A stretch of 64,000 nucleotides of DNA from NCBI RefSeq assembly GCF_014905095.1, contig NZ_CP041165.1:2170001-2234000 (forward strand). Direction: 5' to 3'. The stretch's first letter is position 1; each line of letters opens with the position of its first letter. The notes under the pieces are model-generated. The model was not told the DNA's origin, did not search any database, and saw nothing but the letters and a program-made list of their open reading frames with translations. This document shows positions 5,988 through 12,940 of the stretch, piece after piece. The DNA is from Sulfurimonas marina. GTDB taxonomy: Bacteria; Campylobacterota; Campylobacteria; Campylobacterales; Sulfurimonadaceae. The position numbers and the translations under genes are program-made.

Positions 5988-7055
5988 TTATGAAAATGTT
6001 GCTACTACAAGTTTAGTAACGATGAAACCACCGATTACCAACCATAGGAACATTGCACCCGCTGTATAAAGTGGTGCTAAACCTAAACCTTTAAATTTAG
6101 AGAAAATTGTCCCCATACCTAAAGCAGTCATTGCCATAGTAAGTAAGAATGTATCGATCTCGTTAATAACACTAACAACATCAGCCGGTACTAACTGAAG
6201 TGAGTTAAACCCTGCCATACCGATAAAGTAAACAGCAAACCAAGGTATAACAAGTTTTACACCACCTGCAGCAGAACCAGATTTTTTTGCTTCCATTGAA
6301 AGGTAGATTCCTAAAAGAATAAGCATTGGTGCGATCATAATAACACGAGTCATTTTTACAATTACCGCTGAGTTTGCCATATCAGTTGGAGTTCCTTGGA
6401 TAGAAGCAGGCACCGCAACAACTTGTGCAACTTCATGGATAGTACCACCAACATAGATACCGAACTCTTGAGGAGTCATATGTAAAAAGCCAGTTGCCGG
6501 TTCAATAACTGCCGCGTATAATACCGGATACAAAAACATTGAGATAGTACCGAAAAGTACAACCATAGAAACCGCAACTGCCGTTTTATGTCCTTCAGCT
6601 TTAAGTACAGGCTCTGTAGCAAGAACTGCCGCAGCACCACAAACAGAAGCACCAGAAGCTGTAAGCATTGATGTTTCTTTATCCATTTTAAAGATTTTAT
6701 ATCCAAGGTACGAACCAAGAATAAAAGTCGTTGCAAGCATGATTAGTGATACCATAAAACCACTCATACCTACATCCATAATCTCCTGGAATGTAATTCT
6801 AAAACCGTAAAATACGATCGCAAAACGAAGAATTTTTTTCCCAGAGAATGTTATACCAGTTCCCCAAGCACTTGGAACATGATTGTGTAAAGTGTTTGCA
6901 TAGAATATACCTAAAACGATACCGATTACCAGTGGAGATATACCTAAAGCTTTTACAGCAGCAATGTCTGCAATCATAGTTGCTGCCGCTGCGAAGATAG
7001 CAACAAATATAATTCCAGAGATTGTACCTTTTCTATTTTCTTTTGAAAAAGCCAT
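5988..7055 (-). CDS. YeiH-family (UPF0324) putative sulfate exporter
   Basis: 355 residues, almost entirely hydrophobic with about ten membrane helices, matching the YeiH/UPF0324 family of Pfam 'conserved hypothetical protein 698'. Family signatures seen are GIVLGIFYANTL near 45, GIKF-like SGKKILRFAIVFYGFRIT near 71-88 and SGASVCGAAAV near 132-142. Members are often annotated as sulfate exporters, but this is weakly supported experimentally. A sulfate-producing sulfur oxidiser would have a use for one. The start has an AAGGGT ribosome site. It stands alone between two inverted-repeat regions. Confidence 0.85.
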   Translation of the reverse strand: MAFSKENRKGTISGIIFVAIFAAAATMIADIAAVKALGISPLVIGIVLGIFYANTLHNHVPSAWGTGITFSGKKILRFAIVFYGFRITFQEIMDVGMSGFMVSLIMLATTFILGSYLGYKIFKMDKETSMLTASGASVCGAAAVLATEPVLKAEGHKTAVAVSMVVLFGTISMFLYPVLYAAVIEPATGFLHMTPQEFGIYVGGTIHEVAQVVAVPASIQGTPTDMANSAVIVKMTRVIMIAPMLILLGIYLSMEAKKSGSAAGGVKLVIPWFAVYFIGMAGFNSLQLVPADVVSVINEIDTFLLTMAMTALGMGTIFSKFKGLGLAPLYTAGAMFLWLVIGGFIVTKLVVATFS

Positions 7056-7106
7056 AATTTACCCTTATTTTATTTTAAGGCGCAATTATAACAAAAACAA
7101 CTAATA

Positions 7107-10100
7107 CTAATCATTTACTTTTATTTCTAAAGCATTTTTTACAACACCGTTTTCACTATCTTCTAACGGTTTTAACTCTAAATTTGTCACTCTTTGGGGG
7201 CTTAAAAGTTTCTCTTTAATTAAATAGTTTTCAATTACAAGCTGTCTATTTTTTGCAAGTGTTTCAAGTTCTGCCTGAGTCACTTCCTGAATCTCAATAT
7301 CCAATGCCAACAACTCTTTTTGATATACTCTCTCGAGCTCTTCACCCTTATACTCTTTTTCAAGTTTTTCCATCAGCTTTTCATCTCCGTCATCATCACG
7401 GAGATCTGCATAAATATCCTCTAAAAGATCAATTGTTAAAGCATTTTCTCTTTCATTAATGTTTTTTATACCGCTTTCTTCAACTACGATCGCTATTAAT
7501 TTTTCTCTTTTTAACGCAAAGAGATCCGCTTCTTTATCGTAAGTTGCAGAGATCCCTAAGTTAATTTTAGGACGTTTTTCCATCATTTTTACGATATTGT
7601 CCAGCTTCTCTCTTTGAGAAGGAGTAATCACTGTTTTTCCATTTTCAAACTCTATATACGACAACTCTTCACCTTCAATTCCCATCATAGAACCAAGGAG
7701 TGCAAACGGTGCCGTCACCGCCTTTGTTACAAGGTTTGTAAATGCTTTCCAGATAACTGTACCATATTTAAAGTCAGGTGCGTCAACATTACCCTCTACT
7801 GGTAAATTGAGATCAATTATCCCCTCGTTATCCTCAAGTAGCCCGATCACAAAACCAAGCGGTAGATGTGTCACGTTTTCATCCTCGATCTCATCACCGA
7901 GTATAATCTTGTTAATCACTAAATTATTTTTCCCTTGAAGTTCAGAGTTCAGGATCTTATACCCCAGATCAAGATAGAGTTTCCCCGAATCGATCTTATA
8001 TCCTGCAAATGTCGCACTGTAACCGCTTAAGGAGTTCAACTCTAAATTTTTAAAGTTAAAATCAAGGTCTGTATAGAGTTTTGGAGTTGCCGTATCTATA
8101 CTTCCGATAAGTGTAGTAGAACCGTATTTATCTACTTCGCCGAGTAAATTTATATAACTTGTTTCCCCCGGTTTAGAAGAGAGTACATAGATCACGCCGT
8201 TTAGATCATGAATATCTGTTTGAAATTTGATAGGTATAGAAAAATCTGCAAATTTAGCACTTCCGTTTGATACGTTCACCTTAACAATTTTTATATCTAA
8301 AGGTTCACCTTTTTTCGTCTCTTTAGTTTCGTTTGTATCTTCCTTTTTACTTAGTTTTGCAAAGTTGAGTGTTTTATTTTCATCTACAAAAGCATCCACA
8401 TAAAAAGAGTTAACATCAACTTCATCCACATAGAGTCTGTCAGGAGAGAGTTCATAAGTAAAATCTTTCACATCAAGTTTATTGAGTGAAAAAAGTAAAT
8501 TATTATCTAATGTATTATTAATAAACAGGGAACTAACAGCCAGTTTTCCTTTCACACTAAGGTCAGGATTCTTTTTCGATTTTGCATAGCTTGTTTTTCC
8601 GCTTAACGCCAATTTTCCGTCTTCAATTTTCACATATGCAGATTCATTGAGATAAGGATTTATATCTGCGATCGAAATATTTCTAATATTAAATTTTCCA
8701 GATTGTTTTAAAGGAGTGTGGCGCAGTTTTCCATCTGCATATACCCTCCCTCCTCTATTTACTCTCATAGAGGTTTTATATCTTAACCAGCTGTTTTTAT
8801 TACTGTCAATATTAAAAACGGAAATATTAATGTTTGAGATAGTTTGTTTTGATCTTTGCTCCAACATTCTGTCATAAAAGTCAACTCTTCCATCAGCAAC
8901 TTTAAACTCTTTAACATTAAGATGAAAATTGCTTTTGCCACTCTCTTTTTTTGCGGTTTTTGGAGCAGGTTTTGGGACAACAATGTTTTCAATGTTAAGT
9001 TTTCCGTTTTTATATCTTCTTAGATAAGGGTTGAATCCCTCTAAGTTGATTTTGCCAATTGCCACATCCTCTTTTACTAAATCAAAATCAACTCCTTCAA
9101 AAGTAAAAATATTAAACTTTAATAGACTCTCTTTAGTAGTTCTTTTTTTCAATTTAAAATCATTGAATGCAACTTTGGAATCATCCAGTTTCAGATTGAA
9201 AGTTCCGTTTTGATCGTAAACAAAAAGATTTAGATCCAAACTTGTAAGGAGTGAATCGAGTACAATATTGTATCGCTTCAATGAGCTACGTGCAGCTTGA
9301 TCGATATAAGGGTTGTAATGGGTAACATCAAAATCTTTACACACTATATGTGAAGAGATATCAAGTGGTTGTTGAATAATTTTACCGCCGATATTACATG
9401 AACTTTTCTCGTTTATTAAAGTAGAAAATTGATAAGGAAACGGCTTTGAAGAGTTCAGGTGAATATCTTTAGCACTCAGATTTAGGTCTCTTACCTTACT
9501 TGTAACACTCTTCTCGACAGTATAATCTCTAAATGTTGTAGAGATTTTCTTTAAATCTACATTATCGACAACTACACTCCATGGCTCTGACTCAGTTTTT
9601 GTTTGGTTTTGCTCATTTGTCGACTCAATAACAAAATATTTTTGCAGATCTATCTCACCGTTTTTAAATCTATTTACATTAAGATGTAAAGAGTTTAGTG
9701 AGACCCCTCCAATATGAAGCTGTTGCTTCATCGGTAAAAGATCAACATTACTCACTTGAAAATTTTGCAGGTTAATAATATCTTCTGACTTATCTTTTGG
9801 TTTTATTCTTAACTTATTAATTGCAAGATTTACATTCTCAACTTTTGTCTCATCTAATTTATCTAAGTTAACGCTAAAATCGGCATTGAATGATGCTTTT
9901 CCGTCAGCCACCTCAAAATTCAACATATCTTTTACATAAGTCCACTCCGTATAGAGCTGGTTCGCTTTGAAATCTATATGCCCGTGTAATGCTAACGGTT
10001 TGAAGCCGTCAATTTTGGTATTGATTCTTAAAAATGCACCATCACCCAAATTTGAATAAAAAGCAAAGAGACCGTTACTGCTATGAAAGTCATTCGTATC

Positions 10101-10695: not shown

Positions 10696-12135
10696 TTACT
10701 TTAACTGGTTTTTACTAGGATAGATAAAAGTTGAATTTCTGAAAACAGAAATTTTTTGACTTGGTTTTCCATCTTTATCTAATGCATAAGCATGAATCTT
10801 AATAGGGATGATCGTATCTTGAACATCACTTTTTCCAAGATCACCTACAGCTCTTAGTATTACGATTTTTTTCTTAATTTTATCCGGAGTTACATTAAAC
10901 GGTTTTAACGGTCTTACAACCTCAATTTTACCATTATAACCCTCAGGCATCACTACATCAAAATAGTACTTCATTTTCTCTCTTTGAGTATTTTGTACCA
11001 AGAATGTATATGAGTTTTCTACAGTATATTTATCCTGCTTTTTAGCAATACTATATGCTTGAGTCTCTTTATTGATATTTAAAAGCATATGCTCTTTTGT
11101 AGTACTCATTAAACCTAAAATAATAGTAATAACGATTAAGATCGCACCGTATGCTAAAACTTTAGGACGGAAGAACTGAGTTTTCCCTTTACGATCTACG
11201 ATCTCATAATCACTTGACCAAGTTACAAGAGACGGCTTACCAAGTTTACCCATAACAGTCGTACAAGCATCTACACATTCTAGACAGTTGATACACTCTA
11301 ACTGCAGACCTTTACGGATATCGATATGTGTAGGACAAACAGTTACACACTTCTCACAAGTTGTACACTCAGCATGCTCTTCAACTTTTTGAAGCTCTTT
11401 TTGTTTTGTAAAACCTTTATTTCCCTCTTCGTCATAAATATGACCACCACGGTGTTCATCATAAAGTGCCATAACCGTATGCTCATCATATAAAACTGAT
11501 TGTACACGAGAATAAGGACAAACATATACACAGAAGTTCTCTTTCATAAATACGATATCGTAAATTAAGAACAGTGCTACACCGATGACAAAACCGATCA
11601 TTACACCATGTTCAGCAGGGTTGTTTAAATAGTTAAAGAAATCTTCCGGCGGAACAAAGTACCACATAAAGTCTGCACCTGCAATAAGTGCTAAAACAGA
11701 CCAGATTAGAATAGCTATAACCTTCTTCACTTTATTCTCAGGTTTAGACATATCAGGCTCTTGCTGTTTATTTGCAATACGTTTTCTAAGCCCTAAAAGT
11801 TTTGTCTCAATTAAGTCACGATACACAACTCTAAAGATAGTCTGCGGACATAACCATCCACAAAACACACGACCACCTACAACCGTCATACCAAAGATAC
11901 TGATAAACAGTAACATTAGTAAAAATGGCATTAAATAAAGTTCTTGCATATCAAACTGAATAAATGCAAGGTGTAACTTCATCTTATCGAAGCTTAATAA
12001 AAATAAGTGGTTTCCATCTACCGATATCCAAGGGATCACTAAAGATACTATTGTTGCTAAAAGAAATACGTAATAACGCTTATATCTCCATGGTGAAGGT
12101 ATCTTAAAGTCCTTTTTTTCTGTTTCTTGACTCAT
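10696..12135 (-). CDS. ccoG: CcoG, cbb3 oxidase copper-assembly protein (FixG/RdxA)
   Basis: 479 residues. CcoG reduces copper so that it can be built into the CcoN subunit of cbb3-type cytochrome c oxidase. Seen: membrane segments near 21-37, 70-88, 140-160, 180-197 and 330-350; CGWLCPQ at 92-98; CVYVCPYSR near 208; two ferredoxin-type 4Fe-4S cysteine sets (CTTCEKCVTVCP and CINCLECVDAC) around 255-295; and a C-terminal Ig-like domain (DUF4124-type) facing the periplasm. No ccoNOPQ genes are in the window. The recombinase-like gene lies 36 bases upstream on the same strand and may be cotranscribed. Confidence 0.95.
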   Translation of the reverse strand: MSQETEKKDFKIPSPWRYKRYYVFLLATIVSLVIPWISVDGNHLFLLSFDKMKLHLAFIQFDMQELYLMPFLLMLLFISIFGMTVVGGRVFCGWLCPQTIFRVVYRDLIETKLLGLRKRIANKQQEPDMSKPENKVKKVIAILIWSVLALIAGADFMWYFVPPEDFFNYLNNPAEHGVMIGFVIGVALFLIYDIVFMKENFCVYVCPYSRVQSVLYDEHTVMALYDEHRGGHIYDEEGNKGFTKQKELQKVEEHAECTTCEKCVTVCPTHIDIRKGLQLECINCLECVDACTTVMGKLGKPSLVTWSSDYEIVDRKGKTQFFRPKVLAYGAILIVITIILGLMSTTKEHMLLNINKETQAYSIAKKQDKYTVENSYTFLVQNTQREKMKYYFDVVMPEGYNGKIEVVRPLKPFNVTPDKIKKKIVILRAVGDLGKSDVQDTIIPIKIHAYALDKDGKPSQKISVFRNSTFIYPSKNQLK

Positions 12136-12171: not shown

Positions 12172-12807
12172 CTATTCTGGGCATACGATTGTATTTATAA
12201 TTTGTTCTTCTGCATTTTCCGGGGCTTTTGGTAGTAATGAACCAAAAGCTACTTGTTTAAGTTCACGTGATTCGACGTAATCTTTCAATGAGCTTCTGCT
12301 AACCCCTAGTAATCGTGCTATTTCACTTACACTTTTACCATCTTGTATATATTTAACAATCTCATTTATGTAAACATCAAACTTCGAACTAGATTTACTC
12401 CCTTTAGGTCTACCGATAGAACGCTTTGACTCCTCTTTAAGCTTTTGTCTTAGGTGATCCATAAGACCAAGTACCAACATCGCACTACTCTCTTTGGACA
12501 TTATAACATTTTGCTTGATAAAGTGAACATTAAAGTCGTTACGCAATAAACATGAAAACATCTGAATAAGATCTTCCATATTTGTTGTTAAAACCCAAAT
12601 ATCACTAACAAGTAAAGTAGAGCCAGATTGGGACTGGAAATAGTGTGTCACTTCTTGACGTTCATCCAAACGCTTGTTTTGAGAAGTGTAATCTATAAAT
12701 TCATCGTCAATAACTAAACCATTAGTTAAAGCATACGAATTTATAAGCTGCAACTGCTCATGAACAGCATCAAAGTTTTTCTCCGGTCTAATATAAGCAA
12801 GTATCAT
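12172..12807 (-). CDS. serine-recombinase-like protein without catalytic residues, with HTH (probable regulator)
   Basis: 211 residues with the resolvase/invertase layout: N-terminal catalytic-like domain (1-about 100), long helix (about 108-130), GRPKGSK linker (132-138) and a Hin-like helix-turn-helix (about 158-180, SEIARLLGVSRSSLKDYV). The active site is gone: where the family has Y-x-R-V-S it has YIRPE (residues 5-9, Glu for the nucleophilic Ser), and where it has the D-R-L-G-R pattern it has WVLTT (71-75). Recombination is therefore very unlikely; DNA binding remains plausible. A good sigma-70 promoter lies upstream at 12846-12875. No inverted-repeat recombination sites or transposon genes are nearby. 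Role as a regulator of ccoG is inference. Confidence 0.8.
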   Translation of the reverse strand: MILAYIRPEKNFDAVHEQLQLINSYALTNGLVIDDEFIDYTSQNKRLDERQEVTHYFQSQSGSTLLVSDIWVLTTNMEDLIQMFSCLLRNDFNVHFIKQNVIMSKESSAMLVLGLMDHLRQKLKEESKRSIGRPKGSKSSSKFDVYINEIVKYIQDGKSVSEIARLLGVSRSSLKDYVESRELKQVAFGSLLPKAPENAEEQIINTIVCPE

Positions 12808-12845
12808 TAGCGAATTAACTCCACATAAATTTGATTTTCATCGTC

Positions 12846-12875
12846 ATTATATCAGCTTCTGATGCAAAAAGTCAA
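12846..12875 (-). promoter_or_regulatory. sigma-70 promoter of the recombinase-like gene
   Basis: Minus-strand TTGACT (12870-12875) and TATAAT (12846-12851) with an 18-base spacer, about 40 bases upstream of the start at 12807. The spacer contains ATCAG-CTT-CTGAT, a small palindrome that could be an operator. Confidence 0.7.
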
Positions 12876-12940
12876 TAATTATATATGTTTTTTCGTCATT
12901 TTTATTTTTTTAGGATGATGAGAAGGGGAAAAATAGGGGT

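Follow-up and report, generated by a model that had tools for sequence, protein, structure and literature searches.

A domesticated serine recombinase as a probable autoregulated transcription factor of a small ccoG regulon in Campylobacterota

In the window, by which we mean the whole 64,000-nucleotide stretch of Sulfurimonas marina DNA analysed here, the gene preceding ccoG encodes a 211-aa protein with the fold of a small serine recombinase (Table 1). We consider it probable, at roughly 85%, that this protein is a domesticated serine recombinase acting as an autoregulated transcription factor of a small ccoG regulon through TGACG-N29-CGTCA operators. The fold, the loss of catalytic residues, the synteny, and an operator that is conserved and co-occurs with the gene are computed, and from them we infer DNA binding, the sign of regulation and the signal. 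A first-pass annotation had already proposed a domesticated regulator of ccoG, and the phylum-wide adjacency of the two genes, a conserved operator in their shared promoter and the conservation of the DNA-binding domain all support that proposal.

Table 1. Features of the regulator-ccoG locus, in window coordinates
Feature	Position	Strand	Evidence or remark
Dead small serine recombinase, proposed transcription factor, 211 aa	12172..12807	-	Pfam Resolvase and HTH_7; Foldseek
Glu9 codon, position of the nucleophile Ser	12781..12783	-	D or E in 50/50 family sequences; Ser in 0/85 ccoG-linked sequences
Residues 71-75, WVLTT replacing D-R-x-x-R	12583..12597	-	Alignment to Tn3 resolvase
Cys86 codon, candidate sensor residue	12550..12552	-	Invariant in 85/85 ccoG-linked members
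GRPK arm and helix-turn-helix, residues 131-185	12253..12417	-	Most conserved part of the protein
ccoG, cytochrome oxidase accessory protein / cupric reductase family	10696..12135	-	TIGR02745, 463.5 bits (cut-off 316.7)
Operator 1, putative, TGACGAAAAAACATATATAATTATTGACTTTTTGCATCA, 39-bp inverted repeat of TGACG...CGTCA type	12860..12898	-	35.9 bits, best profile match in the genome
-35 hexamer TTGACT, within operator 1	12870..12875	-	Conserved between genomes
-10 hexamer TATAAT	12846..12851	-	Promoter match
Extra TGACG half-site, overlapping the -10 at its end	12842..12846	-	Distance to the first half-site about 52 bp in most of the genus

Fold, former active site and selection

The reading frame opens with ATG, and its product matches the Pfam Resolvase N-domain (1.6e-7) and HTH_7 (3.1e-5), both above the gathering scores. 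When an AlphaFold2 model of the protein (mean pLDDT 73.7) is searched with Foldseek, the best matches are full-length Tn3 and gamma-delta resolvases. Together, these sources describe a resolvase fold with a long dimer helix and a C-terminal helix-turn-helix, in agreement with the first-pass reading that the GRPK linker, dimer helix and helix-turn-helix are kept. The best NCBIfam match is to the Mpi family master DNA invertase (NF009949, residues 1-184), at 50 bits far below the cut-off of 272, and the protein is thus not a member of that family. With the Tn3/gamma-delta resolvases and the Hin/Gin invertases (PF00239 and PF02796), it has in common the whole-protein fold and domain order, the GRPK/GRPR-type arm, the dimer helix, the C-terminal helix-turn-helix and, as a prediction, the binding of an inverted repeat. 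Unlike them, it lacks the catalytic serine and D-R-x-x-R, its putative site, an inverted repeat of 39 bp, forms one unit with a promoter, no crossover site is seen, and its gene is linked to ccoG rather than to a mobile element.

In the alignment, Tn3 resolvase has DRLGR where the window protein has WVLTT, and W71 is invariant within the genus. The catalytic serine of the N-terminal R-x-S motif is missing from all 85 ccoG-linked sequences; across members, this position holds D, E, K, M, L, Q, V or other residues, D-R-x-x-R is retained in none, and both positions differ between families. The two substitutions first read from the window, Ser to Glu9 and D-R-x-x-R to W-V-x-x-T, are therefore confirmed. 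The accompanying statement that every catalytic residue had been lost is an overstatement, since Arg7 and Gln18 (Arg8 and Gln19 of gamma-delta resolvase) are retained and invariant in the genus. Among close relatives, we find none that still has its catalytic residues together with invertible DNA beside the gene; as far as operator-type sites and gene order are concerned, there is one such site near the gene and the adjacency to ccoG is stable. A still-active recombinase, using an unusual nucleophile or a partner enzyme, would be in keeping with the intact fold and the retained Arg7 and Gln18. However, the free variation of the nucleophile position, the loss of D-R-x-x-R in all members and the occurrence of the site at a constant geometry inside a promoter, without a visible partner site for crossover, make such activity very improbable.

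Among distant members, mean pairwise identity is 61% in the DNA-binding domain (residues 131-185) versus 32% in the former catalytic domain (residues 1-105), and G132, R133, P134, R171, S173, D176, S180 and R181 are invariant. The equivalent of Cys86 is E, R, D or K in six relatives not linked to ccoG. Estimates of dN/dS against the two nearest relatives are about 0.03-0.04 (nearest, about 0.03), and the reading frame is intact in nearly all members. As judged from these sequences, the family is ancient and under purifying selection. A non-functional relic carried beside ccoG would account for the loss of catalytic residues and for several gene losses within the genus, but it is scarcely credible given the low dN/dS, the intact frames and the retention of the gene across the phylum together with a conserved operator.

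Linkage to ccoG and distribution in the phylum

The ORF coordinates and the TIGR02745 match place ccoG 36 bases downstream of the regulator on the same strand, as the first-pass annotation had it. Full-length orthologs (61-97% identity) occur in 46/100 genus genomes, and the gene is found in most sampled genera of the window's family. In the phylum as a whole, it is found in 69/298 well-covered Campylobacterota genomes, or about 25/58 genera, a count that takes in a few weak matches of 43-51 bits to other recombinase-like proteins and one fragment (L153-L157). Nearly all of the 298 genomes (287) encode CcoG. At every Sulfurimonas locus examined, ccoG directly follows the regulator on the same strand, and this neighbourhood, whose conservation the first-pass annotation had suggested checking, is also kept beyond the genus: all 35 ccoG-type members from other genera and families lie directly upstream of ccoG in the same orientation, with one (L133) adjoining a broken ccoG. 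At that locus (G328, 6560-9266), ccoG and an SQR-like gene by the intact regulator seem broken into several frames, reflecting decay or sequencing errors, and an intact ccoG sits elsewhere in the genome with a ccoNOP-like cluster (L184).

Relatives without the regulator retain ccoG, and the regulator is cleanly absent from them; some share the two genes upstream in the window, and others have metH upstream. On the CcoG tree, we count about 4 changes of regulator state, with rows that lack the gene placed within groups that carry it, a pattern in the sequences that fits repeated loss of the regulator. A scan of viral contigs with two patterns returned no viral relatives. In a number of regulator-less genomes (L165-L180), the ccoG promoter region has an AT-rich, Fur-box-like TAATTATTATAATTATTAT-type sequence and no TGACG operator.

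Relatives not linked to ccoG (L082-L085 and L154-L157) are other recombinase-like proteins and are left out of the counts for the ccoG-linked family. They include a second degenerate recombinase-like family, from another bacterial family of the phylum (f7; L154, 5518-6189, plus strand; L155, 5212-5853, minus strand), in which R-V-N or R-I-N replaces R-V-S. Its genes have ubiX-coaD-tmk-like neighbours instead of ccoG and may represent a separate exaptation. In another genome (G332), two near-identical copies with R-V-G at the nucleophile position (L156, 5315-6001; L157, 5423-6109) adjoin repetitive surface-protein-like ORFs.

Operators in the shared promoter and at further genes

The element in the regulator's own promoter has the form TGACG-N29-CGTCA, with a length of 39 bp and a fixed geometry; in the window, the right half is CATCA. 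Matches to TGACG-N28-30-CRTCA occur in 91/109 distinct regulator upstream regions (57/60 in the genus, 15/17 in other genera of the family and 19/32 in other families), versus about 0.04 expected from shuffled sequence, and several of the distant regions without a CRTCA right half have CGCCA. A conserved operator is thus present where an autoregulated factor would be expected to have one, and its end lies 8 bp from the -10 hexamer in 64/73 cases. The strong promoter claimed at first pass is recovered as TTGACT-18-TATAAT (12875-12846, minus strand), TG-extended and with 11/12 consensus matches. Shuffles of the region yield an average of 1.4 equally good matches, so the promoter is better supported by its conservation between genomes. 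Rfam finds no known RNA element in the leader of the gene. Members of two other families (f4 and f11; L115-L120, L128) have, in addition to the inverted repeat, 2-3 direct TGACGAAAATA-type repeats about 20 bp apart upstream of the regulator, which suggests cooperative binding.

A sequence-only profile built from 42 own-promoter sites was run on 30 genomes with 150 candidates scored per genome, and weak sites may therefore be missed. In nearly all genomes, the number of genome-wide matches to the bare pattern TGACG-N28-30-CRTCA does not rise above background, and for this reason we use only recurrent, positioned sites. The best profile match is the own promoter in most regulator-bearing genomes (about 24-43 bits), with the exceptions of one in which a second site, operator 2, scores higher (G125) and one in which the own promoter reaches only 19.2 bits (G349); in two others (G246 and G247), the profile misses the own promoter. 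Across nine regulator-less genomes, the maximum is 18.9 bits, from partial matches. One genome (G125) has 65 forward and 65 reverse matches to the bare pattern versus 12 and 6 for a control pattern, an unexplained excess that may come from a family of repeats or from a larger set of sites.

Operator 2 is the profile's recurrent second match and lies before a gene for a protein of about 70 aa with a single membrane helix, followed by genes for an M48 protease and prmC. Scored by its two half-sites in 50 genus genomes, it is found in 23/33 regulator-bearing and 0/17 regulator-lacking genomes (Fisher p = 1.5e-6 with kinship ignored), and it thereby tracks the presence of the regulator over few independent events: the CcoG tree has about 4 changes of regulator state, and only 2 independent pairs are informative for operator 2, neither of them contradictory but too few to give a sign test any power. 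In the other 10 regulator-bearing genomes, it is decayed or undetected. The copy in the window's genome, TGACGTAAAAATAAAATAAAAAAAAGACTTAAGACGTCG, is slightly degenerate (17.1 bits). Operator 2 ends 42 bp from a -10-like hexamer in 19/24 cases and 41 bp in 4/24; the intervening sequence is poorly conserved, and the promoter has no clear -35.

A third operator precedes a gene for an SQR-like Pyr_redox_2 flavoprotein in five genomes (G011, G093, G149, G100 and G125), is decayed in two (G115 and G128) and is absent from the window's own genome. In families f4 and f8, the operon order is regulator, ccoG, one gene, small membrane protein and SQR-like oxidoreductase, or parts of this. The f4 small proteins are homologous to those behind operator 2 in family f1 (single-comparison E of 1e-11 and 6e-13), while the equivalence of the f4/f8 flavoproteins to the operator-3 gene product rests on a common N-terminal sequence. 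Genes of these two kinds are thus joined to the regulator by an operon in some families and by a common DNA site in others. The cbb3 oxidase genes, named as alternative targets in the first-pass annotation, are rejected as a direct target because the 350 bp upstream of ccoN contain no TGACG...CGTCA pair in the 10 genomes searched.

Co-distribution by itself would not separate the recombinase gene from a second gene lost with it, and the tree offers only about 4 state changes. The operator could then belong to another regulator lost together with this gene, the dead recombinase being architectural or accessory. We consider this unlikely, as the site lies in the gene's own promoter across families diverged at the order level, the region of the recognition helix is nearly invariant over the same range, and the spacing and orientation of the half-sites suit a dimeric binder.

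Proposed mechanism, precedents and significance

For the 211-aa protein as an autoregulated factor, the most likely mode of action is that a dimer binds TGACG-N29-CGTCA through its GRPK arm and helix-turn-helix. In its own promoter, the site would extend from about -59 to -20, a repressor-like position that takes in the -35 and the spacer. The expected effect is lower transcription of regulator and ccoG by negative autoregulation. In relatives, it would also control the genes for the small membrane protein and the SQR-like flavoprotein; the position of operator 2, which ends 41-42 bp ahead of a -10 with no clear -35, suggests activation there. Signal sensing probably takes place in the former catalytic domain, with the invariant Cys86 as a more speculative candidate, and would couple copper or redox state to CcoG supply. 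Since CcoG is a cupric reductase and Campylobacter jejuni deleted for ccoG loses about half of its oxidase activity (PMC8267372), such control is a natural guess. The more specific picture is tentative, and we think it rather doubtful as a whole: a phylum-wide sensor-regulator family in which the former catalytic domain senses redox state or copper at Cys86 and accordingly makes the dimer a repressor where sites overlap promoters or an activator where they lie upstream, so that CcoG and a few membrane redox partners are tuned.

Tn3 resolvase, too, acts as a repressor where its sites overlap promoters. Known small serine recombinase sites, at about 26-34 bp, are shorter than the 39-bp element, which counts against our preferred reading. 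Regulators of host genes derived from nuclease-dead TnpB provide a precedent for a mobile-element enzyme that has lost catalysis and been turned into a host-gene regulator. Unlike those RNA-guided proteins, the 211-aa protein has an unrelated fold and should read DNA by its own helix-turn-helix. In the open-access papers searched, we found no paper connecting a serine recombinase with ccoG and no dead serine recombinase described as a host transcription factor; likewise, the portion consulted of a review of recruited mobile-element genes contains no case of a dead serine recombinase as a regulator.

If our reading is correct, this exaptation would be old and widespread, and because its operator is known and its regulon small and well delimited, it would be readily testable. 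It would connect CcoG with two hitherto unstudied proteins, the membrane protein of 70 aa and the SQR-like flavoprotein, and it would provide a handle on the control of a cbb3 oxidase assembly factor in free-living Campylobacterota.
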